Assembly (NCBI GenBank): GCA_024404245.1 | Contig: JAKSQH010000007.1 | Coordinates: 1 to 45,532, forward strand | Length of the DNA stretch: 45,532 bases | Source of the DNA: Clostridia bacterium | GTDB lineage: Bacteria > Bacillota > Clostridia > Christensenellales > Aristaeellaceae | Reading direction: 5' to 3' | Shown here: in pieces, positions 7,518 through 44,969 of the stretch | Layout: each line of letters opens with the position of its first letter | How positions within the stretch are numbered: position 1 is the first letter of the stretch | Notes under the pieces: generated by a model | Databases searched by the model: none | Told to the model about the DNA's origin: nothing | Seen by the model: only the letters and a program-made list of their open reading frames with translations | Position numbers and translations under genes: made by a program

Positions 7518-9125
7518 ATGAAAAAATCGCGTATCACCGTCCATCCCTCATTCATCATCGGTGAAATATCCCCGAAGCTGTTCGGCGCTTTTCTGGAACC
7601 GATCGGAAAAATGGTCAACGGAAGCATGTATAACCCGAAGCATCCCACCGCGGATGAAATGGGGCTCAGGCATGACTTTATTGACGGGCTGCGTTCCGCG
7701 GCGCTTCCTTCCGTGCGTCTGCCCGGCGGCAACTTTGTCTCCGGCTGGAACTGGAAGGATTCCATCGGGCCGAAGGAACAGCGAAAGGTTCGTCTGGATC
7801 TCGCCTGGCACCAGTTCATCCCGAATGACGTCGGGCACGACGAGTATCTCCGCTGGGCTGAAATGACCGGAGCTGAAGCGATGTACACGGTTAACCTCGG
7901 CACGGGCACGCTGAGTGACGCGGCGGATATCGTTGAGTATACCAACTTTGCCGGCGGCAGCTGGTGGTCGGACCTCCGCGCGGCCAACGGGCATCCGGAA
8001 CCCTACGGTGTAAAGGTATGGTATCTCGGCAACGAAATGGACGGTCCGTGGCAGATTGCCTCATGGGAAAAGGATCCGCGCGGATATGGCATTCTCGCGC
8101 ATGAAACTTCCAAAGCCATGAAGTTCATCGATCCGACCGTCCGTACAGCCGCGTGTGTTTCCTCTTCGCCGTTTCTCTCGCATTATCCGGACTGGGACCG
8201 TCAGGTACTGGAGGAATGCTACGAAACCGTGGATATGATTTCCATGCATCACTACCATTCCGCGCCTGTCGGAAATATCGCCGGTCTGCTGGCCGGATAT
8301 CAGGCTTTTGAGGACTATATCCGCACGGAGATCGGTCTGTGCGACTATGTAAAAGCGAAGCACCGTCTCAGGCGCACCATGATGCTCAGCTTTGATGAAT
8401 ACGGCTCCATGATGCGCCCCGCCGGCAAAGCCTCACTCGGTATGTGCGGCCGCATGCCGGAGCAGACATTCTACCGGTTTGATCCGGAGCAGACCTACGT
8501 GCGTCATGATCCGGACAACTGGGATGACATGCGTAAATGGCCCGCCGGCGCGGGTGAAATGACGCGTACGCTCGGCACCTGCACCGTATTGCTGACGCTG
8601 CTGCGCCACGCGGACCGCGTGAAGATCGGTTGCGCCACCGGCGGGCTCGGAGATCTGTGCGCGTCGGACCGTGAGCATGTATGGCGCGGCGCCGCGTATT
8701 ATCCGTTTACGCAGATGATGCGCTTCGCGGGCGGCACCTCCCTGCAGGCCGTAACCGACTGCGATCATTACAATGTGGAAGGTTACGCCATTGATGACAT
8801 GAATCAGTATGCCGGCTTTGAAAACGCGGCATATGTCCAGTCCGCGGCCGCTGTCAGCGCGGACGGCACGGAGATGGCCGTCTTTATTCTGAACGCGGAC
8901 TGGGAGGATGAGGGCGAGTTCACACTGGACACCCGCGGCTTCGCCGGCTGGCGGTTTGAAGAACACCTCACCATGTTCTCGGACAATCCTGAAGCGCGCA
9001 ACACCTTTGAGAATCCGAATGTGCTCGTACCCGTGCGCGTAAAGGATACCGTGTGTGAAAAAGGAATCTGTTCGGCAATCCTGCCGAAGCTTTCCTGGAA
9101 TGTTTTCCGCTTTACGAAAGCCTGA
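7518..9125 (+). CDS. GH51 alpha-L-arabinofuranosidase, cytoplasmic
   Basis: 535 residues, no signal peptide. A TIM-barrel with the GH51 acid/base in YLGNEMDG (Glu173) and nucleophile in LSFDEYG (Glu294), spaced as in the well-studied Geobacillus enzyme (Glu175/Glu294). The N-terminal GEISPKLFGAFLEPIG and VRLPGGNFVSGWNW blocks are characteristic of the family, and the C-terminal ~130 residues form the beta-sandwich seen in GH51. It should remove terminal arabinofuranosyl groups from imported arabino- and arabinoxylo-oligosaccharides. Ribosome binding site GGAGG; single-gene unit with its own promoter and terminator. Related enzymes in the window are GH43, GH10, GH3 and GH4. Confidence 0.94.
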   Translation: MKKSRITVHPSFIIGEISPKLFGAFLEPIGKMVNGSMYNPKHPTADEMGLRHDFIDGLRSAALPSVRLPGGNFVSGWNWKDSIGPKEQRKVRLDLAWHQFIPNDVGHDEYLRWAEMTGAEAMYTVNLGTGTLSDAADIVEYTNFAGGSWWSDLRAANGHPEPYGVKVWYLGNEMDGPWQIASWEKDPRGYGILAHETSKAMKFIDPTVRTAACVSSSPFLSHYPDWDRQVLEECYETVDMISMHHYHSAPVGNIAGLLAGYQAFEDYIRTEIGLCDYVKAKHRLRRTMMLSFDEYGSMMRPAGKASLGMCGRMPEQTFYRFDPEQTYVRHDPDNWDDMRKWPAGAGEMTRTLGTCTVLLTLLRHADRVKIGCATGGLGDLCASDREHVWRGAAYYPFTQMMRFAGGTSLQAVTDCDHYNVEGYAIDDMNQYAGFENAAYVQSAAAVSADGTEMAVFILNADWEDEGEFTLDTRGFAGWRFEEHLTMFSDNPEARNTFENPNVLVPVRVKDTVCEKGICSAILPKLSWNVFRFTKA

Positions 9126-18373: not shown

Positions 18374-19774
18374 TTATCTGAACCACCCGTCCGGCAGATA
18401 TTTCCGCTGCGCTTCCAGCATATCGTCAAACAGTTTCTGACCGTCATCCCAGCCGATTCCGCCGAGCTGCGGATCATTCATAAAGGTGGTAAAGCCCAGC
18501 GCGCGGTCACAGGTCAGCGCGGCCTTCAGCGCGTTGCGGTGGTTTTCCACATGCCTTGATACAAGCGGAAGCACACCGTCCGGAGTCGGTCCCGCGTATA
18601 CGGGCTCAATCCGGTCATAGCCGAACAGCGCGTTTGTCTCCACAACGGCGCCGAGCGGCAGATCCGGCACCTGCCCGCGGTTCGGAACATTCACGTTGGA
18701 TACGATATCTCCGAGGCCGAGCAGCGCCTTAAGCAGCAGATGGCCCTCCTCGCCGGAGCCGTTCAGACTGATCTCTTCCTGCCCGCTGATCAGATCATCA
18801 CTGCGTTTCATTCTCTTCGCCAGATCCTCAACCCGCCAGTCCACGCTTGTCAGCCCGAACTTCCAGCTGTGTACGGTTTCCGGCGTCATGGTATACCAGC
18901 GGGGTACAAACTCCGCCAGATGACGGTCACCGGCCGCCGCGATCGCCCCGTATCTGAGGAACAGATCAAACTTGACACGCTGCGCGCAGTTGAACGAGGA
19001 GTTCATCCAGTTATTGTCCCCGCCCTCATCATAGCCTGTTTCATAATACTTTTCGGCGAATTTCCGGTACATCGGCATCAGGTCCATCCCGCGCCAGCTG
19101 GCTTTTGTGATCCATGTGAAGTGGTTGATGCCGGTCACGGTTGTATGAATCTCATGGCGGTCAATGCCCTCGATGCCTTCCTGCTCCCTGATCATCGCGG
19201 ACAGAAGCTTCTGGGTTCCGAACACCTCATGGCAGCAGCCGAATGCTTTCACCCGCGGGAAAATCTCATACAGTGTCTGCACGCACAGCGTCATGGGATT
19301 TGTATAGTTGATCACCCACGCGTCAGGCGCGTAATCCCGGATCGCCTCCGCGATCTCCACATACATGGGAATTGTGCGCATGGCCCTCATAAACCCGCCC
19401 GGGCCCGCCGTATCGCCCACCGGCTGCCAGATACCGAGGCGTTCCGGCATATGCACATCGTGCCGCATTTCCTCAAACGTTCCCGGCAGAATCGAAATCA
19501 CCGCAAAATCCGCGCCTGTCAGCGCGTCCTTCAGTGAGTCGCTGACAACATACCGCCAGCGGGACTTTGCTTCCGCGTGCGCGCTGATCTTGTTGCCGAT
19601 CACTTCATTCCGCTCCGCCGCGCCGCGGTCAATGTCATACAGATGAACCGTACCGCAGATCTGCCCGTCCATCGCCAGGTCCTTCATAAAGCCCCATGCC
19701 CAGCCGCGTGAACCGCCGCCGATGTAGGCGACATGAAGATCAGACACCGTATTGTTTTTCAAATCCCTGATCAT
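18374..19774 (-). CDS. GH4 alpha-galacturonidase-like glycosidase (CHEV type)
   Basis: 466 residues. N-terminal Rossmann fold with IGGGSRGW (18-25), NYTNPM (156-161), the metal-site motif CHEV (181-184, Cys181 expected Mn2+ ligand) and INHF (216-219). GH4 enzymes use NAD+ and Mn2+ in a redox elimination mechanism. The four-residue active-site motif sorts specificities, and CHEV is reported for alpha-galacturonidases such as Bacillus LplD, so pectin-derived galacturonides are the likely substrate. Start chosen at the ATG 7 bases after AAGGAG; an upstream frame extension overlaps the leader. A 12-base palindrome GCAGTGAACTGC (19803-19814) sits in its leader as a possible operator. No sugar transporter is adjacent. 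Confidence 0.9.
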   Translation of the reverse strand: MIRDLKNNTVSDLHVAYIGGGSRGWAWGFMKDLAMDGQICGTVHLYDIDRGAAERNEVIGNKISAHAEAKSRWRYVVSDSLKDALTGADFAVISILPGTFEEMRHDVHMPERLGIWQPVGDTAGPGGFMRAMRTIPMYVEIAEAIRDYAPDAWVINYTNPMTLCVQTLYEIFPRVKAFGCCHEVFGTQKLLSAMIREQEGIEGIDRHEIHTTVTGINHFTWITKASWRGMDLMPMYRKFAEKYYETGYDEGGDNNWMNSSFNCAQRVKFDLFLRYGAIAAAGDRHLAEFVPRWYTMTPETVHSWKFGLTSVDWRVEDLAKRMKRSDDLISGQEEISLNGSGEEGHLLLKALLGLGDIVSNVNVPNRGQVPDLPLGAVVETNALFGYDRIEPVYAGPTPDGVLPLVSRHVENHRNALKAALTCDRALGFTTFMNDPQLGGIGWDDGQKLFDDMLEAQRKYLPDGWFR

Positions 19775-19884
19775 TTTCATTCTCCTTACGTTTTTTCCGT
19801 ATGCAGTGAACTGCCTCTCCGCCGGATCATATAGATACATTTTACCACATTTCCGCAATGGCGCTATCAGTAAAAATCGTCATA

Positions 19885-24759: not shown

Positions 24760-26139
24760 TTATTCATTCACGGTTTCCGCAGCGGTGAAATCCGCTTTCC
24801 GGATCCTGCGCGCGAGCATCAGGATCACGAGTGCGAGCGAAAGGATATCAGCCACGGGCTGCGCCCAGATCAGGCCGTTCAGACCGATCAGCGCCTGCAT
24901 GATGAATACCGCGGGAATAAAGATGATTCCCTGCCGGAAAACGGAAGCCAGCAGCGCGTCCGCCGCCGCGCCGATCGCCTGCAGCGTATTCTGACAGATG
25001 GCAAAAGCGCCGATCAGCCACGCCGTGGACAGCAGTATCCGGGAAAAGCGCACCCCCGCGTCCAGCGCGGTCACGTCCGTCAGGAACACTTTCACGATCG
25101 GTTCCGCGAAGATAAAGCAAAGCGCGGACACGGCAAAGCAGAATACAACACCGAACAGCGCCGAAAACCGTATGCCTTCCGTCAGTCTGTCCTTCTGCCT
25201 CGCGCCCCAGCAATACCCGATGAAGGGCTGCACACCGCTGCCGATGCCGATCCCGATCAGGGTCACGATCATGATGATCTTCGCGGTCACACCGTACCCG
25301 GCAACCAGCATATCGCCTCCGTCATACTTTGCCAGCTGCGCGTTCACCACGATGGTGGAAACACTGACCAGCAGATTCGCGAGGGACGCCGAAACGCCAA
25401 CCGCGATAACCCCGCCCGGGATCCCGTTTTTCACGGAGAAGTGCCTCGGATGAATGCTGAGCGCGGTTTTCCCGTTGAAGAAATACAGGATATAATAGAG
25501 CGCCGCGACACCGTTACCGATAACCGTGGCGATCGCCGCGCCGGCAACGCCCCATTTGAACCCGAGGATAAAAACCGGATCCAGGATCATGTTAATAAGG
25601 TTGCCGATCAGCGTGCCCGTCATTGCTTTCATGGCTTCGCCCTCGGTGCGCACTATGCTTGAAAAACAATTGGAAATCATGGAGAAGATGCCGCAACCGA
25701 TTGCGATACGGAGATATTCCTTTGTCAGTCCCGCGCTTTCATCGCCCGCTCCCAGCATCACCGTCACCTTGTCCAGGAAGCCCCACAGGAGCACCATAAA
25801 CAGCGCGCCCACCGCGACGCATGCCCAGAAGCAGAAGGAGCTTGTCTTTTTCGCGCGTTCCGTATCTCCGGCGCCCAGCGCGCGGGAGATCACCGATGTG
25901 CCGCCCACGCCGAACAGTGTGCCGAGCGACATAAAGATCATGAACAGCGGCGTCGCGAAGGACACCGCCGTCACCTGCAGGTCATTGTGCGTCAAACCGA
26001 GAAAAAAGGTATCCGCGAGGTTATATACCATCACCATGATCATCGCGATCAAGGCGGGAATACTGTTTCCGATCACAATTTTCGATACGCGTTCCGTTTT
26101 GAATGAGTCGATGGATGAACCGGTTTTTGAATTATGCAT
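24760..26139 (-). CDS. MATE-family efflux transporter, MarR-linked
   Basis: 459 residues with 12 predicted membrane segments in two MatE repeats: GNSIPALIAMIMVMVYNLADTFFLG near the N-terminus and VSASLANLLVSVSTIVVNAQLAKYDG at the start of the second half, plus the ALGAGDTERAKK loop typical of the family. MATE transporters export drugs or metabolites using Na+ or H+. The ATG follows the MarR stop by only 4 bases, so it is cotranscribed with its likely repressor. The drug or signal is unknown. Confidence 0.93.
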   Translation of the reverse strand: MHNSKTGSSIDSFKTERVSKIVIGNSIPALIAMIMVMVYNLADTFFLGLTHNDLQVTAVSFATPLFMIFMSLGTLFGVGGTSVISRALGAGDTERAKKTSSFCFWACVAVGALFMVLLWGFLDKVTVMLGAGDESAGLTKEYLRIAIGCGIFSMISNCFSSIVRTEGEAMKAMTGTLIGNLINMILDPVFILGFKWGVAGAAIATVIGNGVAALYYILYFFNGKTALSIHPRHFSVKNGIPGGVIAVGVSASLANLLVSVSTIVVNAQLAKYDGGDMLVAGYGVTAKIIMIVTLIGIGIGSGVQPFIGYCWGARQKDRLTEGIRFSALFGVVFCFAVSALCFIFAEPIVKVFLTDVTALDAGVRFSRILLSTAWLIGAFAICQNTLQAIGAAADALLASVFRQGIIFIPAVFIMQALIGLNGLIWAQPVADILSLALVILMLARRIRKADFTAAETVNE

Positions 26140-26747: not shown

Positions 26748-28118
26748 TCAGCAGGCAACCGTTTCTCCGGATACGGTGTCTTTTTTCCGGAACAGCGCGC
26801 TCCGGCGATAGAACACAAACAGCAGTGACGAGCACAGCAGCCATCCTACGGGATACGCCAGCGCCACGAAGAACCTTGAACCGCTGAGCAGTTTCGTGAT
26901 ATACAGATAAATCTGACGGAACACCACAAAGCTGCCGAGCATAATGAATGTCGGTGTTTTGGAGTTGCCGATACCGCGCAGCGCGCCGCTGTAAATCTGG
27001 TTTGTGCATATCAGAAAATAGAACGGGATAATTCGCCGCACAAAATATGTGCCGAACTCCATAACATCCTGCTCATCCGTAAACAGCGATACCAGCTGTT
27101 CCGCCAGAATAAAAACAATTGCCGATAACACAACCGCGCTGAGTATGGAAACCTTCAGGGATACGGTCACACCGTCGCGCGCGCGTTTGCGGTCACCCGC
27201 GCCCCAGTTCTGCCCCACGAATGTTGTGGAAGCCATCGCCACAGCCTGCACGGGCACCAGCACAAACGGGTCCACCTTGGCGTAGCATGTCCAGCCCGCC
27301 ATACATGCCGAACCGAAAAAGTTGATGTAGGACTGCACGAACACATTGCTGAAGGATGTGACCGCCGACTGAAGTGCCGAAGGCAGCCCGACGGCAAAGA
27401 TGCTTTTCAGCAGTGATTTATCCAGGCAGAGTTTCTTCAGCCGGATTCCGTACGCCGCGTCGGTATGCATCAGCGAAATCATCACCAGTACGGCGGACAG
27501 CGCCTCGGCGATAATCGTCGCCAGTGCCACACCGCGCACACCCATGTTGAATCTGATCACAAACAGCAGATCCAGCACAGTATTGACAACAGCCGACACA
27601 ATCAGGAAATACAGCGGTCGTCTGGAATCGCCCACAGCGCGCATGATACCCGTACCCATGTTATAAATCAGCAGGCCTGTTACACCCGCGAAGTAGATTC
27701 TGAGGTATTCGGTCGCGTCAGCCAGCACATCATCCGGTGTCGCGTTCAGCTGCAGCATCGGTCTGACCGTCGCGATGCCGAGCAACGTACCGACGGCGCA
27801 CAGAATCAGCGTAACGGTCATTGTGGTATGCACCGCTCTGCTCAGGCGTTCATTGTCGTGTGCGCCGTATGTCTGGGACACCACAACGCTCGCGCCGGTC
27901 GCCAGCCCGGCAAATGTGCCCACAAGCACATTGATGATATTCCCGTTGCAACCCACAGCGGCCAGTGCTTCCTTGCCAACAAACTTACCGACGACCACCG
28001 CGTCCACCGTATTGTACAGCTGCTGAAACAGCAGACCGATCATCATCGGAACAGCAAACTTCACAATATGTTTCCATATTGTTCCGCTCGTCATGTCAAC
28101 ATCTTTCCTGCGATTCAT
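26748..28118 (-). CDS. MATE-family efflux transporter
   Basis: 456 residues, 12 membrane segments. DMTSGTIWKHIVKFAVPMMIGLLFQQLYNTVDAVVVGKFVGKEALAAVG is the classic N-terminal MatE start, and the second repeat begins KSIFAVGLPSALQSAVTSFSNVFVQSYINFFG. It is distinct from the MarR-linked MATE 600 bases downstream and is not its recent duplicate. The start is uncertain: M1 has GGAGA about 12 bases away, while an internal ATG at codon 9 (28094) has AGGAAAG about 8 bases away. No regulator is adjacent. A -10 TATACT on the minus strand near 28160 is plausible. Confidence 0.92.
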   Translation of the reverse strand: MNRRKDVDMTSGTIWKHIVKFAVPMMIGLLFQQLYNTVDAVVVGKFVGKEALAAVGCNGNIINVLVGTFAGLATGASVVVSQTYGAHDNERLSRAVHTTMTVTLILCAVGTLLGIATVRPMLQLNATPDDVLADATEYLRIYFAGVTGLLIYNMGTGIMRAVGDSRRPLYFLIVSAVVNTVLDLLFVIRFNMGVRGVALATIIAEALSAVLVMISLMHTDAAYGIRLKKLCLDKSLLKSIFAVGLPSALQSAVTSFSNVFVQSYINFFGSACMAGWTCYAKVDPFVLVPVQAVAMASTTFVGQNWGAGDRKRARDGVTVSLKVSILSAVVLSAIVFILAEQLVSLFTDEQDVMEFGTYFVRRIIPFYFLICTNQIYSGALRGIGNSKTPTFIMLGSFVVFRQIYLYITKLLSGSRFFVALAYPVGWLLCSSLLFVFYRRSALFRKKDTVSGETVAC

Positions 28119-30176: not shown

Positions 30177-32339
30177 ATGAAAGCGGAAGCATTGAAAGAA
30201 CTGCTGGACAGCATGAGTCTGGCTGAAAAGATCGGCCAGCTGGTTCAGTGGAATTATGCCGCTCTGGCGATGACGGACGCCGAAGTAACCGGTCCGGAAA
30301 CACTGCGTTTGTCCGCGGACGCGATGAAGTATTTCGGCAGCGTGTTGAATTTCAGTTCGGCGGATGAGATGATCCGCCTGCAGAAGCAGTATATGTCCGG
30401 CGGAGAACACCCCGTGCCGTTACTGTTCATGATGGACGTGATTCACGGTTACCGCACGGCGTTTCCGATCCCGCTCGCGCAGGCCGGTTCGTTTGATCCG
30501 GATCTGGTCAGGGAATGCGCGAAAGCCGCGTCCGCGGAAGCCGCGGCCGGCGGTGTCCATCTGACCTTTACCCCCATGGTGGACCATGTGCGTGATCCGC
30601 GCTGGGGGCGCGTCATGGAATCCTGCGGAGAGGATCCGTATCTTTCCGGCATCATGGGAGCCGCGCAGGTTGAAGGGTTCCGCGGAAAGGATCTGACGGA
30701 TAAAAACGCGCTCGCGGTCTGCGTCAAGCATTATGCCGGCTATGGCGCGCCGGAAGGCGGCAGGGATTACAATCAGGCGGAGTTGAGCGAGCATGTCCTG
30801 CGTGAATGGTATCTGCCCGCGTATAAAGCCTGCCTTGACGCGGGGGCGGATATGATTATGCCCTCATTCAACGCGCTGAACGGTATTCCGTCCGTCGCGA
30901 ATCCCTGGCTGATGAATCAAGTGCTGAGGGATGAATGGCACTTTAACGGTACGGTCATCAGCGACTATAACGCGCTGGATGAACTGATCACCCAGGGCAT
31001 AGCGGAAAACAGGCGACATGCCGCCGTGCTTGCCATGAACTGCGGCTGTGATATTGACATGGTGAGCGGTTGCTACGCGTCCGATCTGGAAAAAGCGGTT
31101 CGTGACGGGCTCATCAGCGAGGAGCAGATCAATACAGCCGCCATGCGCGTGCTGAAGGTCAAAAACGATCTCGGCCTGTTTGAAGATCCGTTCCACGGCG
31201 CGTCCGCCGATCCGGAAACGGTCGGCAATCTTGTGCGGCAGCACCGAACGCTTGCGGAAAAGGCCGCGGTCGAATCCGCCGTGCTGCTGAAAAACAACGG
31301 TGTACTGCCCTTTGCCGGATCCGTGAAAAAAGTCGCCGTAATCGGTCCCTTTGCAAGCAGCCGCGAGATCGTCGGCGCGTGGTGCTGCAATTGCGATACA
31401 AGTGAAACCGTCACGGTTGCCGAAGGTATCCGCGCCCTGCTGCCGGATGCGGAAATTACAGCCGTTTCAGGCTGTTCCGCGCGCATCGGGGACAAAGACG
31501 GCTCCATGATCAATGAAGCCGTACGCGCCGCTGAAAACGCGGACTGTGTCGTACTGTGCGTCGGCGAGGAGATGGAATGCTCCGGCGAGGGCAGGAGCCG
31601 TGCTTCCGTCACACTGCCCGGCATGCAGGCGGAGCTTGTCCGCAGGGTCACCGGAGCGAACCCGGTTACGGCTGTCGTTCTCTTCGGCGGCAGACCGCTC
31701 GATCTTACGGAAATTGACGCTGTTTCCCCCGCCCTTCTGGAAATGTGGATGCCGGGTACGGAAGGCGGAACTGCCGTGGCAAAGTTGCTGTTCGGCGTTG
31801 CCGAACCGTGCGGCCGGCTGGCAATGTCCTTCCCGAAGTCCGTAGGTCAGCTGCCGCTGTTCTACGCGCGCAGCAATACCGGGCGGCCGAAACAGGTTCC
31901 GGAGGATGAGTATCAGCCTTACTGCTCCAATTATATGGATTGCGGCAATCTGCCGCTGTACAGCTTCGGTCACGGTCTCACCTATACGGAATTCAGATAT
32001 GATGAACTCCGTCCGGAAAAAACCGTACTGCGCGCCGGAGAGGATCTGAACGTGACGGTTCGCCTCACAAACACAGGGAAGCGTACCGGTACGGAAATCG
32101 TACAGCTGTACATCAATGACAAGGTTTCATCGGTTGTAACCCCTGTACAGAAGCTGGCGGCGTTCGCGAAAATCAGCCTGGCCCCCGGGGAAAGCGGAGA
32201 AGTCAGGCTCACCGTATCATCCGAGCGTATGCGGTTGTGGAATTTCTCGGGTCAGTCTGTCATTGAGCCCGGGGAATTTGAGATTTTCGCCGGATACGCG
32301 GATCATCCGCTGCTCACGCGGACCTTCACAGTTATTTAA
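30177..32339 (+). CDS. GH3 beta-glycosidase (beta-glucosidase/xylosidase type), cytoplasmic
   Basis: 720 residues, no signal peptide. Domain 1 TIM barrel (about 1-330) with LLFMMDVIHGYRTAFPIPLAQAGSFD, VKHYAGYGAPEGGRDYNQAELSE and the nucleophile in VISDYNA (Asp263); domain 2 alpha/beta sandwich (about 350-570) with AVIGPFASSREIVGAWCC and VGEEMECSGEGRSRA, which carries the likely acid/base Glu; a C-terminal fibronectin III-like domain (about 600-715). This BglX-like architecture usually cleaves beta-glucosides, sometimes beta-xylosides. Being intracellular it should act on imported oligosaccharides together with the neighbouring GH10. AGGAGG-like site CGGAGGAAAG 8 bases upstream. It has its own promoter and terminator. 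Confidence 0.93.
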   Translation: MKAEALKELLDSMSLAEKIGQLVQWNYAALAMTDAEVTGPETLRLSADAMKYFGSVLNFSSADEMIRLQKQYMSGGEHPVPLLFMMDVIHGYRTAFPIPLAQAGSFDPDLVRECAKAASAEAAAGGVHLTFTPMVDHVRDPRWGRVMESCGEDPYLSGIMGAAQVEGFRGKDLTDKNALAVCVKHYAGYGAPEGGRDYNQAELSEHVLREWYLPAYKACLDAGADMIMPSFNALNGIPSVANPWLMNQVLRDEWHFNGTVISDYNALDELITQGIAENRRHAAVLAMNCGCDIDMVSGCYASDLEKAVRDGLISEEQINTAAMRVLKVKNDLGLFEDPFHGASADPETVGNLVRQHRTLAEKAAVESAVLLKNNGVLPFAGSVKKVAVIGPFASSREIVGAWCCNCDTSETVTVAEGIRALLPDAEITAVSGCSARIGDKDGSMINEAVRAAENADCVVLCVGEEMECSGEGRSRASVTLPGMQAELVRRVTGANPVTAVVLFGGRPLDLTEIDAVSPALLEMWMPGTEGGTAVAKLLFGVAEPCGRLAMSFPKSVGQLPLFYARSNTGRPKQVPEDEYQPYCSNYMDCGNLPLYSFGHGLTYTEFRYDELRPEKTVLRAGEDLNVTVRLTNTGKRTGTEIVQLYINDKVSSVVTPVQKLAAFAKISLAPGESGEVRLTVSSERMRLWNFSGQSVIEPGEFEIFAGYADHPLLTRTFTVI

Positions 32340-32412: not shown

Positions 32413-33654
32413 TCAGAAGGCAACTGTTGTCTCCCCGGTCTGTTTGCTCAGTGTAAACGCCGCTGTCTTCCCGTCACCGGCGCTCAGCCTGTATTCACCG
32501 CGGAAGCCGTGCAGCACCGCGAACCCGTTTTCATCTGTCATCATCGTTTCATCAGTATGCCATTCGGTCGCGAGCATATCACGCAGCCAAAGCAACGCTT
32601 TCTTGGGAGACCCGTCAGAATGAATCAGTCCGCTGGGAGCACCGAGCCACTGATGGTCTTCAAAGTTCCAGTTTGTGAACCCTTCCACAAGCGGCCTGCT
32701 GAACAGATATTCCGCCATTGTCTTCAGGTCCTCCTTCTGCCGCTCCTCACCTTCCGGCGTGCTCGGCCATTCCGGTACCTGATAATCGTTCAGGTCCACG
32801 ATTTCCGGCGGCATCAGATGCCCGGATACAAAGGTATTCTCGGTATAGTGAATCGGCAGGCCGAAGCTTTCGAACCTTTCCGTCACTTCCTGCAGTTTCT
32901 CCATACCCCAGAAGCCCTGATGCTGATGGCTCTGGATACCGATGGTATCAATCCCGACACCGGCGTCCAGACAATCCGCGACCAGCCGGCTGTACCGTTT
33001 GGATGTATTGAAGTCGTTGATCAGCAGCTTCGCTTCCGGATCCACGGCATGCGCTTCGTCAAACAGTGCCTTGACCAGCGGCACACGTCCCATTTCGCGG
33101 CAGATACGCGTCACCGGATTCATACGCGGCATACTTTTCGGCTCATTCACAAATTCCGGCATGATCACCACTTCGTTGATTACATCCCAGAAACCGATTT
33201 TGCCGCGGAAAGCGGTCAGCTCCCGGCGGATACGGTATTTGAAGTATTCAAGCACCTCATCCGACGGCATATCATACATCCACGGCGCCGCGACCGTATG
33301 CCAGCACAGCGGGTGGCCTTTCATGGTCTTCCCGTCCGCCTTCATGCGCTCCGCGGCCCGAAGAGTTTCAGCTTCGGCTGTCTTTCCCTTTTCCGGCTCA
33401 TACCGGCCGAGATAGAAGCTCATCGTACCGTAATTGAAAGTCGATTTCCACAGATCATAGATCTTTTCGAGCCATTCTTTCTGAGCCGCCGGCGTTCCCG
33501 GATCCGTCATCGGCACGGTAAAAAAAGCGCCGGTACCGAAAAGGAATTCATGCTTTGTCAGTTCGGCGCGGACTTTCGTGTTCCGCAGCGGCTCACCGGC
33601 CGGATCGGTAAAGCGGATAGCAGCGGTGGATTTTCTGCATTCCCAGCGTTCCAT
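32413..33654 (-). CDS. GH10 endo-beta-1,4-xylanase-like enzyme, cytoplasmic
   Basis: 413 residues without signal peptide, binding module or linker. The first 40 residues form a small beta segment (IRFTDPAGEPLRNTKVRAELTKHEFLFG), common in the GH10 subgroup of intracellular xylanases. Then GHPLCWHT (113-120), acid/base in FWDVINEV (Glu161), GIQSHQHQ (239-246) and the nucleophile in HYTEN (Glu272; most GH10 have TELD here). A C-terminal beta domain (about 345-413) follows GFTNWNFEDHQWLG. GGAGGT lies 9 bases before the chosen ATG; the frame is open 16 codons upstream. Own promoter with a palindromic operator. It is likely to cut imported xylo-oligosaccharides. Confidence 0.93.
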   Translation of the reverse strand: MERWECRKSTAAIRFTDPAGEPLRNTKVRAELTKHEFLFGTGAFFTVPMTDPGTPAAQKEWLEKIYDLWKSTFNYGTMSFYLGRYEPEKGKTAEAETLRAAERMKADGKTMKGHPLCWHTVAAPWMYDMPSDEVLEYFKYRIRRELTAFRGKIGFWDVINEVVIMPEFVNEPKSMPRMNPVTRICREMGRVPLVKALFDEAHAVDPEAKLLINDFNTSKRYSRLVADCLDAGVGIDTIGIQSHQHQGFWGMEKLQEVTERFESFGLPIHYTENTFVSGHLMPPEIVDLNDYQVPEWPSTPEGEERQKEDLKTMAEYLFSRPLVEGFTNWNFEDHQWLGAPSGLIHSDGSPKKALLWLRDMLATEWHTDETMMTDENGFAVLHGFRGEYRLSAGDGKTAAFTLSKQTGETTVAF

Positions 33655-33700
33655 GAAACAGCACCTCCGGTAATATGAATTGTTCGGACAAATTTTCTTC

Positions 33701-33729
33701 ATTATACCGGATACTTACATCCGGTACAA
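33701..33729 (-). promoter_or_regulatory. GH10 promoter with operator palindrome in the spacer
   Basis: Minus-strand TTGTAC (33729-33724), 17 bp spacer, TATAAT (33706-33701). The spacer is almost entirely the palindrome CCGGATACTTACATCCGG (33707-33724), with perfect 6-base arms; a repressor bound there would exclude RNA polymerase. Confidence 0.65.
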
Positions 33730-33784: not shown

Positions 33785-35542
33785 TCAGTCTCCCGGTTTG
33801 TCATTCAGAAAAATCGTCAGATTGTTCAGATTCATTGAGTAGGTATAACGTACTTCATCCGCCATTCCCATAACCAGCCGGATTCCGTAGCCGCCTTCCT
33901 GAGTGCGGTTTGCCGCGTAGGTGACAGGGTTGAACTCCCTGCAATCATCCCGGAATCGAAGGGTCCACCGGTTTCCTTTGTGCTGCAACCGGACGGAAAG
34001 ATGGCGGTCCTTCTCCTTTTCAAATCCGTAAGTCACCGTATTAACGCCCGTTTCTTCAATGCACAGGGCAATCCGGTTGCTGACCGTCGTTCCGATACCG
34101 TGCTCAGTACAAAACACGGCAGCCGCTTTTGACGCGTCCGTCACATCCTGCAATGTACGTATATCCCGTTCCAGCAGATCCTCCGCCGGCACGCCGAAGT
34201 CCTCCGGAAGCATCAGCAGCGCTTCCGCGGAAGGAATAAGCCGGCGGCTCTTCCGGTACACCGCGATCCAGATTCCGGCAATCGCCAGAATCTCCCCCGC
34301 GGGATAGCTGAGCCATACGCCCGCGGTATGAAAAGGCAGGCTCAGGAGCCACGCCGCCAGGGACGGGAGTATCGCTCCCTCCATGGTGGAGATCAGTTCC
34401 GTCCGCCCAACACGGCCCGTTCCGTAATAAATGTTCTTCAGTGTGCTGATCACGCAGCACGGAATAATCCCAAGCGCGAACAGACGAGTTCCGAGAATTG
34501 CCATATCCTGTGAACTGCCCGCCTCCGGCAGGAACAGCCGCACGCAGAACGGCGCGGCAAACTGCAGAACCGCTGCCACACATATCCCCAGAATCAGACC
34601 GTACCGAAGCATCAGCCGCAGCATTTCCTTCAGACCGGTTCTGTCTTCTTCACTGAACAGAACCGCCGACAGGGTCAGCGAAACACCGCCGATACCGGTG
34701 TTGATGCAATTGGCTGAGTTGATAATCGTCATGATAACCGAGAACGCGGCAACCGCCATACTGCCGCCGTTGGACGGCAGCAGCAGAATCTTGTTCAGCA
34801 CAAAAGTCAGGACTACCGTGGATGCCATTGTAAACACCGTCGGCACCCCGTCGGAAAGCAGCTCACGTACTTTCTCCGTCCGTACATCCTTCAGTGAAAA
34901 GCGGAAAACGCACTTCTTTGAGCAGAAATAGAAAGCGCCGACCAGCAATGCCGCGTAATAGCTGAGGGAGGAAGCCAGCCCCATGCCGAACATTCCCCCG
35001 TGAAAAACCAGCGCGTTCAGAAGATCCAGAACAACATCCGTCACCGTCATGGTCGCGACCGCGGCAATCAGCAGGCCGCTCTGACCGGCTATCTGCAGAA
35101 AAGGAACCAGGATAAGCGCGCCCATGGATCCGGGCGCGCCGATACTGAAGCCCGCGATATAGTCGGCGGTATCCTCCGCGAGTTTTCCTTCCGTACCGGC
35201 GCCGAGCAGGGACGCCAGCGGCTTTCTGAGTAATATGCAGAAAAGCAGAAAGGCGGCGGAAATGATAAGCGCGATACATGTCATGGAAGAAAAACCCTTG
35301 TTGGTTTCTTCCGGCGATCCTTTTCCGACGGACTTTGAACAGCAGACCTGTGCCCCGGAGGACAGCATGGTTCCGATGGCGCCGATCACCAGCAGCAGCG
35401 GATTTGCCAGCCCGTATGCCGCGATGGCATCCACTCCGAGAAACTGACCGATCATAATGCTGTCGATCAGCAGGCAGAGAGAAACGGTCAGCGCGGACAG
35501 AATCTGCGCGGTCAGCATCTGTTTGATCAATTTGCGGATCAT
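33785..35542 (-). CDS. MATE transporter fused to a C-terminal RsbW-like histidine-kinase ATPase domain
   Basis: 585 residues. Residues about 1-440 form a 12-segment MATE transporter (KQMLTAQILSALTVSLCLLIDSIMIGQFLG, then LLSDGVPTVFTMASTVVLTFVLNKILL). After a linker, residues about 455-580 are a HATPase_c_2 domain as in anti-sigma kinases (RsbW/SpoIIAB): N-box IALCIEETGVNT (491-502, Glu496/Glu497 and Asn501), G1-like box FRDDCREF (DDC in place of DDG) and G2 box GGYGIRLVMGM (550-560). The fusion suggests that export, or a MATE-like sensor, is coupled to phosphorylation or partner switching. The partner (anti-anti-sigma STAS protein) is not in the window. GAGGAG ribosome binding site. A plausible promoter is TCGACA/TAAACT at about 35683-35655 on the minus strand. 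Confidence 0.85.
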   Translation of the reverse strand: MIRKLIKQMLTAQILSALTVSLCLLIDSIMIGQFLGVDAIAAYGLANPLLLVIGAIGTMLSSGAQVCCSKSVGKGSPEETNKGFSSMTCIALIISAAFLLFCILLRKPLASLLGAGTEGKLAEDTADYIAGFSIGAPGSMGALILVPFLQIAGQSGLLIAAVATMTVTDVVLDLLNALVFHGGMFGMGLASSLSYYAALLVGAFYFCSKKCVFRFSLKDVRTEKVRELLSDGVPTVFTMASTVVLTFVLNKILLLPSNGGSMAVAAFSVIMTIINSANCINTGIGGVSLTLSAVLFSEEDRTGLKEMLRLMLRYGLILGICVAAVLQFAAPFCVRLFLPEAGSSQDMAILGTRLFALGIIPCCVISTLKNIYYGTGRVGRTELISTMEGAILPSLAAWLLSLPFHTAGVWLSYPAGEILAIAGIWIAVYRKSRRLIPSAEALLMLPEDFGVPAEDLLERDIRTLQDVTDASKAAAVFCTEHGIGTTVSNRIALCIEETGVNTVTYGFEKEKDRHLSVRLQHKGNRWTLRFRDDCREFNPVTYAANRTQEGGYGIRLVMGMADEVRYTYSMNLNNLTIFLNDKPGD

Positions 35543-37995: not shown

Positions 37996-39381
37996 TCAGT
38001 CGCCGAAACGTATTCTGTGCATAACCGGGCAGCGCAGATGGTCCCGGCAGGATGCTACCGTATGATAAGCGATCCACCATTCACCTTCCGCGTCCCGGAA
38101 GAATGAATTGTGACCGGGCCCGTATTCACCGGGTACGGAAGTGAAATTCATAAAAGGCGTATCGCACTTGCGCCAGTTTTCCGGCTTCAGCAGATCATCC
38201 GACGCGTCCGCGGTCAGCATGCCGATAACATAGGTATACCCGTTGGCCGATCCGCCCGAATAGGCCAGATATACCTCCCCGTTCCGCACAATCGGATAGG
38301 GACCTTCATTATTGATGGTACCCGCGACGTTCTCCCATCCGTACAACGGTCTGGAAAGCAGCACCGGTTCACTGTCCAGATACCGCGGGTCCGTTTCGTT
38401 CAGCGTGGCAATATACAGCATCGATCCGGTATCCATCGGCGTACCGATATGCTTCCGGTAACTCCATACAACATACGTCCTGTCCGTACGGAAGCAGGTC
38501 ATATCCAATGTTATGCCTTCCGGATCCGTCAGCGGTGACCCGTCCTTCCGCAGCACGGGTACAGGCGTCGTCCATCCGTCCGGATCGGTGATATTGCCGC
38601 CGGGTTTCAGCTTCATCATATGGCACCGCGGTCCCCACTTTTTCCCGCTCACGGCAAACAGAATATACAGTTCACCGCCGATCTCATGAAACTCCGGCGC
38701 CCAGAATGTCTGCACGAAGCCCTTTTCTTCATCCGCGCCGAGAATCAGATGTTCCGTGGCGTCCGGGCGGAAAAGCTCCTCCATGGTCTCTCCGCGGCGT
38801 ACATACAGCCCGATATCATTCAGGTTGTCATTCGTGGCGATAAAATAGTACATGCCTTCCCGGTACAGCAGTACCGGATCCCCGTATCCCTTCACCGGCG
38901 GATACGGCACGCCGGCAGGCAGCTCCCTGTCCACGCGGAAAGGATACCCGCACGGATCGGACCAGCGTTCCATGACCAACCCGTAAATACGCGCGCTGAT
39001 CTCCGCCGTATCGCACCACAGCCCGGCAGGCCGCGCGATCATCCCCAGCGGTTCAAAGGCACAGAAGTCTGCCGTGCGCCATGCCTGTACACGGTCCGCG
39101 TTGTCCTCCGGCAGTCCGTTTTCATAGCACCGTTTGGCAAACACCAGCCATGTGCCGTCCTCTTCCGGGCGGATCGCGGGTGAAATAAGCGATCTCGGGC
39201 TGATCCGGTCCTGTTCGTCAATCAGACCGGTCGCGAAAAGGATCCCGTAATTATGGTTCAGCAGTGTTTCCTCACCGCCTTCGGCACGGCATGCCATATG
39301 AATGCTCAATGCAAGGCCGTCCGGATAAGTATCGTGATCCGGCCTGCGTATAAAAACACGTATAAAATGTCTGTCACCCAT
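37996..39381 (-). CDS. GH43-like arabinofuranosidase/arabinanase, cytoplasmic
   Basis: 461 residues, no signal peptide. Five-bladed beta-propeller signatures: GYGDPVLLYREGMYYFIATND (Asp168, candidate general base), FWAPEFHEIGGELYILFAVSG, GITLDMTCF (Asp293, pKa modulator), NNEGPYPIVRNGEVYLAYSGG (Glu359, general acid) and GPGHNSFFRDAEGEWWIAYH (His424). The first ~150 residues are an extra domain before the propeller. Substrate likely arabino- or xylo-oligosaccharides. AGGAGG 7 bases before the ATG. A palindromic TGATACAATTATATCA (39408-39423) overlaps the extended -10 and may be an operator. The frame stays open after its TGA (see previous entry). Confidence 0.9.
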   Translation of the reverse strand: MGDRHFIRVFIRRPDHDTYPDGLALSIHMACRAEGGEETLLNHNYGILFATGLIDEQDRISPRSLISPAIRPEEDGTWLVFAKRCYENGLPEDNADRVQAWRTADFCAFEPLGMIARPAGLWCDTAEISARIYGLVMERWSDPCGYPFRVDRELPAGVPYPPVKGYGDPVLLYREGMYYFIATNDNLNDIGLYVRRGETMEELFRPDATEHLILGADEEKGFVQTFWAPEFHEIGGELYILFAVSGKKWGPRCHMMKLKPGGNITDPDGWTTPVPVLRKDGSPLTDPEGITLDMTCFRTDRTYVVWSYRKHIGTPMDTGSMLYIATLNETDPRYLDSEPVLLSRPLYGWENVAGTINNEGPYPIVRNGEVYLAYSGGSANGYTYVIGMLTADASDDLLKPENWRKCDTPFMNFTSVPGEYGPGHNSFFRDAEGEWWIAYHTVASCRDHLRCPVMHRIRFGD

Positions 39382-41877: not shown

Positions 41878-43867
41878 TGCGCCCTCCAGAAGGCAGCTGC
41901 GCCTGCTCAAGCTTGCCGGCGTCATCCTGCTGACGCTCGGCGTGCTGTTCATCGCGTGCGGTCTCATGGGCAAAGGCCAGGCGGATTTCTATGCCAAAAA
42001 GTGCAAGATTGACACTGCAGAATGGCTTGAATACGCTTCAGGCCGGAAGGAAGTCGCGCCGCTGGATGACGAAGACTACAACGGCCGCAACCTGAACGAA
42101 AGCGGCAAGCTGAAAAAGAACCTGACGGACTATCTGGCAAAGGTCACCGTGTTTGACAGAATCTGCATGCCCGCCTCAATTCCGCTGATCATCGCGGGCG
42201 CTCTGATTATTCTCACCGGTGCCTGGATCCTGATCAAAAATGATGTATGGTCCATGGTCACGGTTCTGGCGATTCTGTTCTATCTTGTCTTCCTGCTTTA
42301 TCCGCTGTTCTCCATTCTGCGTCAGGCGGTTGTAAACACGGACGGGCAGATCACACTCGAGTACTTTAAATCAATTTTCAGCAAGGCCTATTACAGCAAC
42401 GCGATCTGGCACAGCCTGCTGATTTCCGGTGTGGTTACGCTGGTTTCCGTACTGATCGCCACACCCATGGCGTACATCATGTCCACCATGAAGATCCGTT
42501 TTGCCGGAGCGCTGCAGATTCTGATTCTCGTCAGCTCCATGTCCGCGCCTTTCATCGGCGCTTACGCGTGGATTCAGCTTTGCGGCCGTAACGGCATTGT
42601 TACAAACCTGCTTGCAAACATCGGTATCCAGCTGGGTGACATATACGGCTTCAAAGGCTGTGTAATCGTCATGAGCTTCCAGCTTTACAGCCTTGTGTAT
42701 ATGTTCATCTCCGGCGCGTTCAAGAACATGGACAATTCTCTGATTGAAGCCAGTGAGAGCCTCGGCTGCACAGGATTGAAAAAGATGTTCCGTGTTGTGC
42801 TGCCCCTGATGCTTCCCACCCTGCTGGCCGGTGCGCTGCTTGTATTCATGCGCGCGTTCGCGGATTACGGCACGCCGATGCTGATCGGCGAGAATTACAT
42901 TACGCTCCCCGTGCTTGTCTATAAGGAGTTCTTCAGTGAGCTGGGCGGCTCGGACGGGTTGGCGGCCGCGATTTCCATCATCGCGATCCTGATCACCACG
43001 GCGATCTTCCTGCTGCAGAAGTACATTTCAAACCGGAAAGTGTTCTCAATCAACGCGCTTCATCCGGTAGAGCAGCGTCAGGCCAAAGGGCTGAAGAATG
43101 TGCTCGCGCATATCTTCTGCTATCTGATGGTCGGTATCGCGATTATGCCGCAGGCATTCGTCATCTACTGCTCATTCCGCAAAACCAGCGGCCGGCTCTT
43201 TGTACCGGGCTTCTCGCTGAGCAGTTATAAAGAGGCGTTTGACACCGTCGGTCACTCAATCTGGATGACCTACCTTATGGCATTTATCTCCATTTTCTTC
43301 ATTGTCGCCATCGCCTGCATGATCGCCTACGTTGTTGTACGCAGGCGCAATCCGTTCAACTCCGCGGTGGATGTTGTCTCCATGTTCCCGGAAACCGTGG
43401 CGGGTTCCATTCTGGGCATCGCCCTGCTGACCGCGTTCAACCGGCGTCCGCTTCTGCTCTCCGGCGGCATCTTCATTATGATCCTGTCCTACACCATCCG
43501 CAGACTGCCGTATACGATCCGTTCCTCCTCGGCAATCCTCAGAAATATCTCTCCCAGTATTGAGGAAGCGGCCATCAGTCTCGGCGCCAGCAACGCGAAG
43601 ACCTTCCTGAAGGTCACCACACCCATGATGATGCCCGGTGTTATCTCCGGCGCGATTCTCAGCTGGATCATGATTATTACGGAGCTTTCCACATCCATTA
43701 TTCTGTATACGACCAACACCAAAACCATGACGCTGGAAATATACAGCCAGGTCATCCGCGGAAATGACGGTCCCGCTTCCGCTATTTCCGCCATCCTTAC
43801 CTTCTCCACCATTATCGCCCTTGCTGTCTTCTTCAAGGTCAGCGGTAAAAAAGAGATTACAATGTAA
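41864..43867 (+). CDS. ABC importer permease, two permease units fused
   Basis: 667 residues. Two N-terminal membrane segments flank a polar loop (about 15-36 and 100-125), followed by two BPD_transp_1 units: first about 170-390 with the EAA loop IEASESLGCTGLKKMFRVVLPLMLPTLLAG, second about 440-660 with IEEAAISLGASNAKTFLKVTTPMMMPGVISG. This fused form is typical of Fe3+/2-aminoethylphosphonate-type importers (AfuB/FbpB-like), so one chain supplies both half-channels. AAGGGGG (41851-41857) is the ribosome binding site; two adjacent ATGs (41864 and 41867) are possible starts. Terminator follows at 43883. Confidence 0.92.
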   Translation: MMRINAPSRRQLRLLKLAGVILLTLGVLFIACGLMGKGQADFYAKKCKIDTAEWLEYASGRKEVAPLDDEDYNGRNLNESGKLKKNLTDYLAKVTVFDRICMPASIPLIIAGALIILTGAWILIKNDVWSMVTVLAILFYLVFLLYPLFSILRQAVVNTDGQITLEYFKSIFSKAYYSNAIWHSLLISGVVTLVSVLIATPMAYIMSTMKIRFAGALQILILVSSMSAPFIGAYAWIQLCGRNGIVTNLLANIGIQLGDIYGFKGCVIVMSFQLYSLVYMFISGAFKNMDNSLIEASESLGCTGLKKMFRVVLPLMLPTLLAGALLVFMRAFADYGTPMLIGENYITLPVLVYKEFFSELGGSDGLAAAISIIAILITTAIFLLQKYISNRKVFSINALHPVEQRQAKGLKNVLAHIFCYLMVGIAIMPQAFVIYCSFRKTSGRLFVPGFSLSSYKEAFDTVGHSIWMTYLMAFISIFFIVAIACMIAYVVVRRRNPFNSAVDVVSMFPETVAGSILGIALLTAFNRRPLLLSGGIFIMILSYTIRRLPYTIRSSSAILRNISPSIEEAAISLGASNAKTFLKVTTPMMMPGVISGAILSWIMIITELSTSIILYTTNTKTMTLEIYSQVIRGNDGPASAISAILTFSTIIALAVFFKVSGKKEITM

Positions 43868-43882
43868 GGCGTATAAACACGT

Positions 43883-43925
43883 GACCGGGGAAACACAACC
43901 GTGTTTCCCCGGTCATTCATTTTCT
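43883..43925 (+). terminator. Terminator of the ABC importer operon
   Basis: Perfect 14-base stem GACCGGGGAAACAC (43883-43896)/GTGTTTCCCCGGTC (43901-43914), then ATTCATTTTC. Confidence 0.82.
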
Positions 43926-43976
43926 TCTGTATTAATTATCCAACCGTACTTCCGTGTTCTGTCACGTGTAATACGC

Positions 43977-44885
43977 TCAGAACAAATCCAGCATACTGTC
44001 CAGATAAATTTCCTCACGGACCTTCAGCTGATATTCCGGCTTTGTCATATAATACAGCAGGAATTCAAGAATCAGCGCGCTGCCGAGTCCGCGTCCCTCA
44101 ATTTTAAAGTTCGAAAAGCCCATCGGCAGATAGGTATTGTAAATATCATCAATTCCGATGAACCCCGGATTCTTCATAGCTTCCGAAAAACGGTATCCCC
44201 TGCTGCCGCCGGGTGCCGTACAGATGTGGTCCGGGCAGTCCTCTCCCAGGCTCTTGCGGCTGACATTCTCGTAACACTTTTTTCTGTCCCCGCAGGTAAA
44301 CGAACAGCACTCATTGCACAGGAACTCCGTCCTGTCCTTCAGCCCGGCGGGCATCCCCGCCAGTTTTTCAAAAGCTTTGTTCAGCCGGAAGTCCGGCACG
44401 ACATACGCGAATTCCTCACGTTCCGTCTCCTTCAGGAAATCGCTGAATTCCGTAAGGACCTTCGTGGTCGATGAAACGAGATACAGCCGGGGATACTTTT
44501 CTCTCAGGAAATTCATCAGCAGGTCGGAATGAACAATAACACCGTTTCTGACATCACCGTCCTGTTCAAACAGTGTGCAGAGTGTGTTGCATTTCCGGTC
44601 CGTCAAATGCTCCTCCGTCAGCAATGAATTGCTGAATGTCAGTCTGGATGAAATCCCGTAACGGTTCATAAGGTTCAGCACTTTCCGCGGGTCCGCGTCC
44701 CCGAAACCGACACGTCCTCCGCCCCATATGCAATCAGCCGGTGCCCCGTAGACTGAACCGATTTCACACCGCGGGCGGAAATATTCCCTGTGTTCATAAA
44801 ACAGCGGCAGAAAGGCGCTGTAAAAATCGTAGAATTCAAACAGACCGGGCAGATGAAAATAAATATTTTTTTCAGTTCCGATCAT
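43977..44885 (-). CDS. U32-peptidase-like protein with a conserved cysteine cluster
   Basis: 302 residues. The first 160 residues look like a TIM-barrel half (GGGRVGFGDADPRKVLNLMNRYGISSRLTFSNSLL, NGVIVHSDLLMNFLREKYPRLYLVSSTTKVL). Then EFLCNECCSFTCGDRKKCY (Cys190, 193, 194, 198, 204) and further Cys217 and Cys222, and FKIEGRG (260-266). The Cys-rich NECC segment plus KIEGR is the pattern of the U32 family, whose members (UbiU/V, RlhA, TrhP) hold an iron-sulphur cluster and hydroxylate RNA or ubiquinone precursors; the name peptidase is historical. The start is the ATG following GAAGGGAT; the frame is open 28 codons upstream. No partner gene adjacent. Confidence 0.7.
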   Translation of the reverse strand: MIGTEKNIYFHLPGLFEFYDFYSAFLPLFYEHREYFRPRCEIGSVYGAPADCIWGGGRVGFGDADPRKVLNLMNRYGISSRLTFSNSLLTEEHLTDRKCNTLCTLFEQDGDVRNGVIVHSDLLMNFLREKYPRLYLVSSTTKVLTEFSDFLKETEREEFAYVVPDFRLNKAFEKLAGMPAGLKDRTEFLCNECCSFTCGDRKKCYENVSRKSLGEDCPDHICTAPGGSRGYRFSEAMKNPGFIGIDDIYNTYLPMGFSNFKIEGRGLGSALILEFLLYYMTKPEYQLKVREEIYLDSMLDLF

Positions 44886-44969
44886 ACGGTTTTCATCCCT
44901 TCTGCAACATTCACACCGCGGTAAATACAAGATATAGTATATCACCGGCCGGCATAAATCGGGAAACAA

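Follow-up and report, generated by a model that had tools for sequence, protein, structure and literature searches.

The window, that is, the whole stretch of 45,532 nucleotides analysed here, comes from the draft genome of a gut bacterium of the Clostridia (65% complete, 86 contigs). On its minus strand, at 33785..35542, it carries a gene of 585 codons (P0001) that is open from ATG to stop and encodes a protein of 585 aa, in which a MATE transporter is joined to a predicted GHKL domain. In the same register the plus strand over 33785-35542 is not open and contains stops. The initial annotation had described a single uninterrupted frame combining MATE and HATPase_c_2, and the Pfam searches bear this out: MatE matched in two stretches (E=8.9e-21) and HATPase_c_2 at residues 464-576 (E=1.5e-13), both above the Pfam cut-off. 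Three parts of the protein can be told apart, all encoded on the minus strand. Residues 1-435 (34238..35542) make up the putative DinF-like MATE transporter body, recognised by MatE, by TIGR00797 and by comparison of a family profile with PDB entry 5c6o. A linker follows at residues 436-458 (34169..34237), in which L445 and F449 were invariant and E458 nearly so in the 49 rows of that profile. Residues 459-582 (464-576 according to Pfam; 33797..34168) form the probable RsbW/SpoIIAB-type GHKL domain, assigned from Pfam and from its PDB relatives RsbW and SpoIIAB.

Around the fused gene lie carbohydrate genes and a gene for an MscS channel. The carbohydrate-degrading genes were found at 7518-9125 (arabinofuranosidase C-terminal domain), 18374-19858 (GH4), 30177-32339 (GH3), 32413-33702 (GH10) and 37996-39381 (GH43). 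Two MATE genes without a GHKL tail are present on the minus strand at 24760-26139 and 26748-28118, about 6 to 8 kb off the fused gene. Towards the end of the window the frames at 43764-44474 and 43977-44969 overlap on opposite strands, and neither gave a Pfam match at 1e-5.

Apart from the fusion and the paralogue described next, the genome yielded five matches to plain MATE proteins, in frames of 453-475 aa, whereas the fusion family adds about 150 residues with the GHKL domain. It also contains, on contig C5, a paralogue of the fusion with 30% identity over residues 1-546 in a frame of 603 aa. This paralogue (L002, G000:C5:8659-10275) has EEIGNYILKNN as its N-box, while its G1 box reads RDNG; its tail gave no match to the HATPase_c_2 model at 1e-3.

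The MATE body matched the NCBIfam model TIGR00797 with E=1.3e-37 and 129.6 bits, which is below the cut-off of 147.4. A 49-row family profile, built from the window copy and 48 of the best 80 loci from 117 relatives, aligned end to end over positions 2-436 with DinF-BH (PDB 5c6o, E=2e-27). Asp27 in TM1 (35462..35464, minus strand) was invariant in 49/49 rows and falls in a column occupied by D in the entry 5c6o and by N in the entry 5c6n; we take this acidic TM1 residue to matter for transport coupling. Judged by its sequence, the MATE part thus qualifies as a DinF-like MATE transporter.

HATPase_c_2 domains of the type found in the tail are known from bacterial stress-signalling switches. A profile of the tail (13 rows) matched the structures of RsbW (6m36) and SpoIIAB (1tid, 1th8, 1til, 1l0o) with modest E-values of 4e-4 to 7e-4, the alignment spanning only the stretch from the N-box to G1, and it is on such profiles that the predicted GHKL fold rests. 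The three motif boxes proposed in the initial annotation were all found in place: the N-box EETGVN at residues 496-501 (34040..34057), the G1 box DDC at 532-534 (33941..33949) and the G2 box GGYG at 550-553 (33884..33895), all on the minus strand. A count by eye on the printed alignment places Glu497 opposite Glu46 and Asn501 opposite Asn50 of SpoIIAB; Glu46 of SpoIIAB is the catalytic base. Compared with the hallmarks of RsbW and SpoIIAB, the window copy has a HATPase_c_2 domain with an E-xxx-N box and a G2 box whose final Gly is preceded by GG, as in the canonical domains encoded nearby in relatives, and it departs from them at G1, where DDC stands in place of DxG.

The initial annotation had read the DDC box correctly and had taken it to mean that ATP binding may be altered. 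The box is no isolated defect. Across 162 MATE-fused domains position 534 was occupied by C in 134 cases, by G in 20, by S in 5 and by another residue in 3, while E497 was kept in all 162, N501 in 147, D532 in 155 and G553 in 158. In 93 aligned orthologues, compared in two alignments, E497, D532 and G553 were present in 93, N501 in 92 or 93 and C534 in 89 or 90. The remaining 28 HATPase_c_2 domains at the loci examined gave a different picture (19 lone RsbW-like, 6 PP2C-fused and 3 STAS-APH-HATPase): C534 occurred in none of them and G in 28/28. Removal of copies at least 90% alike left C534 in 132/156 fused and 0/26 other domains. A second contrast concerns GG at 550-551, which was present in 27/27 other domains reaching G2 and in only 1/162 fused domains, that one being the window copy. 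Decay of the G1 box in a single copy can accordingly be dismissed, C534 being typical of the fused domains and absent from other HATPase_c_2 domains. In a tree of the GHKL domains, calculated from 99 rows and 136 columns with SH-aLRT as the only support measure, all fused domains lay on one side of a branch with an SH-aLRT value of 99 (72 versus 27 rows), a result to be read with the warnings that columns are few and that long branches meet. The DDC box is a sequence signature of a distinct GHKL clade. The position of the fused domains on one side of the branch, together with the C534 and GG contrasts, fits a division of labour between fused and canonical GHKL domains.

It might be suspected that the fused gene is an assembly artefact or a chance frame, as the genome is only 65% complete and broken into 86 contigs; an assembly join was also among the cases that the initial annotation had named as undoing its reading. 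This suspicion did not survive the comparison with other genomes. Near-full-length homologues, 51-83% identical, were present in 35/99 other relatives, which gives 36/100 genomes with the window genome included, 31 of them in the genus and 5 in the family. A match at 1e-20 or better was obtained in 60/100 genomes, again counting the window genome, in a survey that scored at most 13 candidates per genome in most genomes. Some survey rows showed stops; their matches run to the protein end, and the fused frame of G006 (L250) is open throughout. A contig scan recovered 117 relatives, of which the best 80 were kept as loci; these relatives are labelled MAG or uncultured, and many have the rumen or another gut habitat as their source. 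When the C-terminal bridging part served as query, matches were found in 20/391 other Clostridia genomes (at least 85% complete) and in 9/397 other genomes of the phylum (at least 90% complete), three genomes being common to the two draws. The MATE-HATPase_c_2 architecture is thus patchy in Clostridia. Among the class-level matches in other genomes 24/25 lay in frames of at least 570 aa. Moreover, in a comparison with L037 (83% identical) dN/dS was 0.13 in the MATE part and 0.14 in the GHKL part, so that purifying selection is seen on both domains. Homologues, long class-level frames and dN/dS together lead us to reject an assembly join or a chance frame, which we consider virtually impossible.

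Loss of the tail was seen at one of the best 80 loci, L112, where it disappears inside the contig and no HATPase was found in the DNA behind the break; L055, a near-copy of L112, is fused. At L056 and L113 the matches end early at the contig end. A tree of the MATE part (79 fused and 13 nonfused rows, duplicates included), in which midpoint rooting served only for display, grouped the nonfused rows together except for L112. Since these nonfused rows lie inside the fused ones, the tree is no proof of one fusion origin, although a single origin is likely. The fusion is a stable one, marked by the DDC box. No match at 1e-20 was found in 72,556 plasmid records, and PADLOC gave no match that would place the fusion in a defence system.

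The initial annotation had suggested looking for STAS or PP2C partners among the genome neighbours. At the window no STAS, PP2C or RsbW gene was found within 6 kb of the fused gene; in part of the relatives, such partners are encoded close by on the same strand. Three samples, picked by protein match alone and blind to neighbours, were compared: the window's group (the best 80 of the 117 relatives' loci, with 79 different fused proteins), paralogues (40 of the paralogue stretches on the survey list, with 42 fused genes) and the class level (20 of the 25 Clostridia matches). Neighbours were counted by HMM scans, as clustering of greedy gene calls, with their long antisense frames, was too noisy. 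With iteration, MATE-fused domains became predominant in the local RSBW profile, and matches inside fused frames were excluded from the counts. A STAS, SpoIIE-type PP2C or RsbW-like gene lay within 6 kb on the same strand at 20/79, 9/42 and 9/20 loci of the three samples, respectively; on the opposite strand the same gene classes were found at 0, 3 and 1 loci. No signalling neighbour was present within 6 kb on the same strand at 59/79, 33/42 and 11/20 loci, where some of the flanks end at contig ends. The class of neighbour varied, STAS and PP2C being found at 16 versus 6 of 79 loci in the window's group, at 2 versus 8 of 42 in the paralogues and at 6 versus 6 of 20 at the class level. Set against Poisson expectations (based on 144 STAS matches in about 122 Mb, with rounded genome sizes), which overstate the significance because related loci are not independent, a STAS gene lay within 3 kb of 11/31 genus orthologues, all 11 on the same strand (0.25 expected), and of 4/45 distant paralogues in the genus, 3 of them on the same strand (0.46 expected).

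Taking all 162 loci, a set that is partly enriched because some loci were fetched for a known neighbour (the fragment L172 was dropped), 47 had at least one of STAS, PP2C and RsbW-like; at least two were present on the same strand within 6 kb in 24, and all three in 9. Canonical RsbW-like domains were encoded near the fusion in 23/162 loci. Another HATPase_c_2 domain was found within 6 kb in 16 (10/21 and 6/9) of the 30 loci with a same-strand STAS gene, and none in the other 14. Pfam searches with representatives recovered SpoIIE in 4/4 PP2C proteins, HATPase_c_2 in 5/5 lone RsbW-like proteins and STAS in 1/1 lone STAS protein. The serine motif SS(A/G)GLR, with the phosphorylatable Ser of the STAS loop, was present in 34/35 STAS domains of the fused-gene loci, the remaining one being cut short; a few of these domains lie at a distance of more than 3 kb or on the opposite strand.

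Several arrangements were seen with all genes on the same strand and separated by short gaps. The fusion is the last gene in the orders STAS-X200-PP2C-[fusion] (L224), STAS-X200-[fusion] (L038, L044, L045, L207) and PP2C-RsbW-[fusion] (L119), and the first in [fusion]-STAS-X200-RsbW (L062, L113, L116, L228) and [fusion]-PP2C-RsbW (L152, L220, L222, L223). L038 and L119 belong to a single contig stretch and have one PP2C-RsbW pair in common. At two loci that also carry the fusion, L202 (8437-10035) and L209 (7142-8716), STAS, an APH-type phosphotransferase and HATPase_c_2 are joined in single chains. At L220 (5074-6675) and L223 (4682-5554) STAS and the fusion are separated by a gene for a GH3-family or an LPG_synthase_C protein; such neighbours could possibly hint at the exported substrate.

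The companion designated X200 in these gene orders is a protein of about 200 residues that often adjoins STAS (for example at L062:8299-8901, L066:3870-4484 and L202:4232-4813). None of the five X200 proteins tested had a Pfam match over the cut-off. A profile comparison of X200 with GHKL aligned 40 columns with 78.6% probability, so that X200 is perhaps a degenerate GHKL protein. It was present in 39/45 genomes of the genus, including 13/13 near-complete ones, and was not found in the window genome and in G028, both of which are incomplete. STAS-X200 pairs also occur in G001, G008, G022 and G035, where no orthologous fusion was found. The switch therefore seems to be a wider one, with the fusion as an optional client. 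As to the window genome itself, STAS genes adjoin the two SpoIIE-HATPase fusions on its contigs C20 and C30, which indicates that partners are present in trans.

Partner switches are known above all for the release of sigma factors, and the initial annotation had pointed to anti-sigma kinases, which use this type of domain to phosphorylate an antagonist and to hold a sigma factor. Gene order gives no support for the holding of a sigma factor by the tail. In 21 genomes with fused genes, Sigma70_r2 gave 245 matches in about 54 Mb, a density from which about one fused gene would be expected by chance to have such a match within 3 kb. It was observed for 2 of about 38 fused genes, at G029:C13 (1.6 kb upstream) and at G011:C24 (0.3 kb, on the other strand), and a third fused gene, at G012:C7, had a match within 6 kb. 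Sigma-factor genes were thus not enriched near the approximately 38 fused genes of these 21 genomes. Nor was a sigma family seen among the 25 of 67 families listed when 58/96 unlabelled operon neighbours were searched in Pfam. A sigma factor as a regular member of the module is rejected, Sigma70_r2 being near chance level in these 21 genomes.

The gene order beside switch parts in some relatives suggests that either the switch controls export or export controls the switch. We propose that the exporter belongs to a partner switch that works without a sigma factor and that a STAS protein docks on the tail to set transport, a reading that we find plausible at a confidence slightly short of even. 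In this model the tail, as a diverged GHKL domain of the SpoIIAB/RsbW type, would bind an RsbV-like STAS protein. Phosphorylation of the STAS serine would be set by a PP2C phosphatase of the SpoIIE type together with a canonical GHKL kinase, and the STAS protein would alternate between the kinase and the exporter tail, whereby transport would be raised or lowered. The output of the partner switch would then be a transporter, without a sigma factor. We infer the physical docking, its direction and its effect on transport, and likewise that the window copy relies on partners whose genes lie in other parts of its genome. In favour of the docking model are the clustering of STAS, PP2C and RsbW-like genes, the SS(A/G)GLR motif, the invariant Asp27 and the lack of enrichment of sigma genes. 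Because canonical domains are encoded alongside in 23/162 loci, the diverged tail is best read as a docking site for STAS. Slightly more tentatively, we suggest that STAS phosphorylation may gate MATE export by way of the GHKL tail and that the DDC clade and X200 may have evolved for this job.

Some observations do not sit easily with the docking model. A pure receiver would not need the Glu, Asn and G1 Asp that were kept in 162, 147 and 155 of the 162 fused domains. Most loci, the window included, lack a same-strand signalling neighbour within 6 kb, STAS was within 3 kb of only 4/45 distant paralogues, and only 16/30 loci with a same-strand STAS gene have another HATPase_c_2 domain within 6 kb. 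The main rival is a membrane-bound kinase: the exporter would be the sensor and the tail an active kinase, so that MATE flux or occupancy would set the rate of STAS phosphorylation and downstream targets would follow. The conserved Glu497, Asn501 and Asp532 speak for this reading; the window copy with its GGYG at G2 and the 14/30 same-strand STAS loci without another HATPase_c_2 domain within 6 kb point the same way. We nevertheless regard it as rather unlikely, because canonical RsbW-like domains are available near the fusion in 23/162 loci, because most of the fused clade lacks the Gly at G1 and the GG at G2 found in canonical domains, and because no recurring output gene appeared among the operon neighbours scanned (58/96).

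The tail could alternatively behave like RsbT, binding and activating a neighbouring PP2C, in which case the exporter would tether or gate the phosphatase. RsbT activates RsbU by binding (PMC12143880), PP2C genes adjoin the fusion in L224, L235, L248, L211 and L154, among others, and PP2C was commoner than STAS in the paralogue sample (8/42 versus 2/42). Since STAS prevails in the window's own group (16/79 versus 6/79) and the two tie at the class level (6/20 each), we think this explanation improbable. A further view would confine the tail to sensing ATP or to stabilising or oligomerising the exporter, the clustering being a product of shared regulation or chance. It would agree with the lack of partner-switch neighbours at most loci and with the divergence of the MATE-fused domains in sequence. 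It does not explain why exactly the three partner-switch classes are found with a strand bias and short gaps, even in class-level relatives, and we judge it decidedly unlikely, if somewhat less so than an RsbT-like role.

Like the RsbW and SpoIIAB kinases (6m36, 1th8, 1l0o), the fusion has a GHKL domain, as predicted, with an E-xxx-N box, the G1 Asp and the final G2 Gly, and some of the relatives have STAS and PP2C genes close to the fused gene. Unlike them it is joined to MATE, carries DDC at G1 and is not accompanied by an enrichment of sigma genes; G2 GG, moreover, is missing in 161/162 fused domains, the window copy being the one that has it. DinF-BH (5c6o) resembles the fusion over profile positions 2-436 and in the TM1 Asp. 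The SLC26/SulP transporters offer a parallel, as they too have one member of a partner-switch pair for a cytoplasmic domain, in their case a C-terminal STAS domain (PMC8256260). The fusion differs in that its tail is the GHKL half, that STAS, where found, is separate and that the transporter belongs to another family. A partner switch with a target other than a sigma factor has been proposed for SiaABC-SiaD of Pseudomonas, where it would act on a diguanylate cyclase (PMC7647112). As described there, SiaABC shares with the fusion modules a PP2C phosphatase, a kinase, a STAS-like protein and a non-sigma target; its target is a diguanylate cyclase and no transporter is fused. The best NCBIfam match of the PP2C of L224 was SiaA, with 82.4 bits against a cut-off of 700.

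The initial annotation knew of no characterised protein of this architecture, and our literature searches, by titles and abstract openings among the matches listed, found no paper on a MATE and HATPase_c_2 fusion or module. Uncharacterised UniProt/InterPro entries with MatE and HATPase_c_2 may well exist. The fusion is new in its combination, and its parts are already known. The small soluble parts of the modules allow direct testing. If the proposal is true, export would be controlled post-translationally by partner-switch chemistry, and a transporter carrying the GHKL half would mirror the SLC26 transporters that carry the STAS half.
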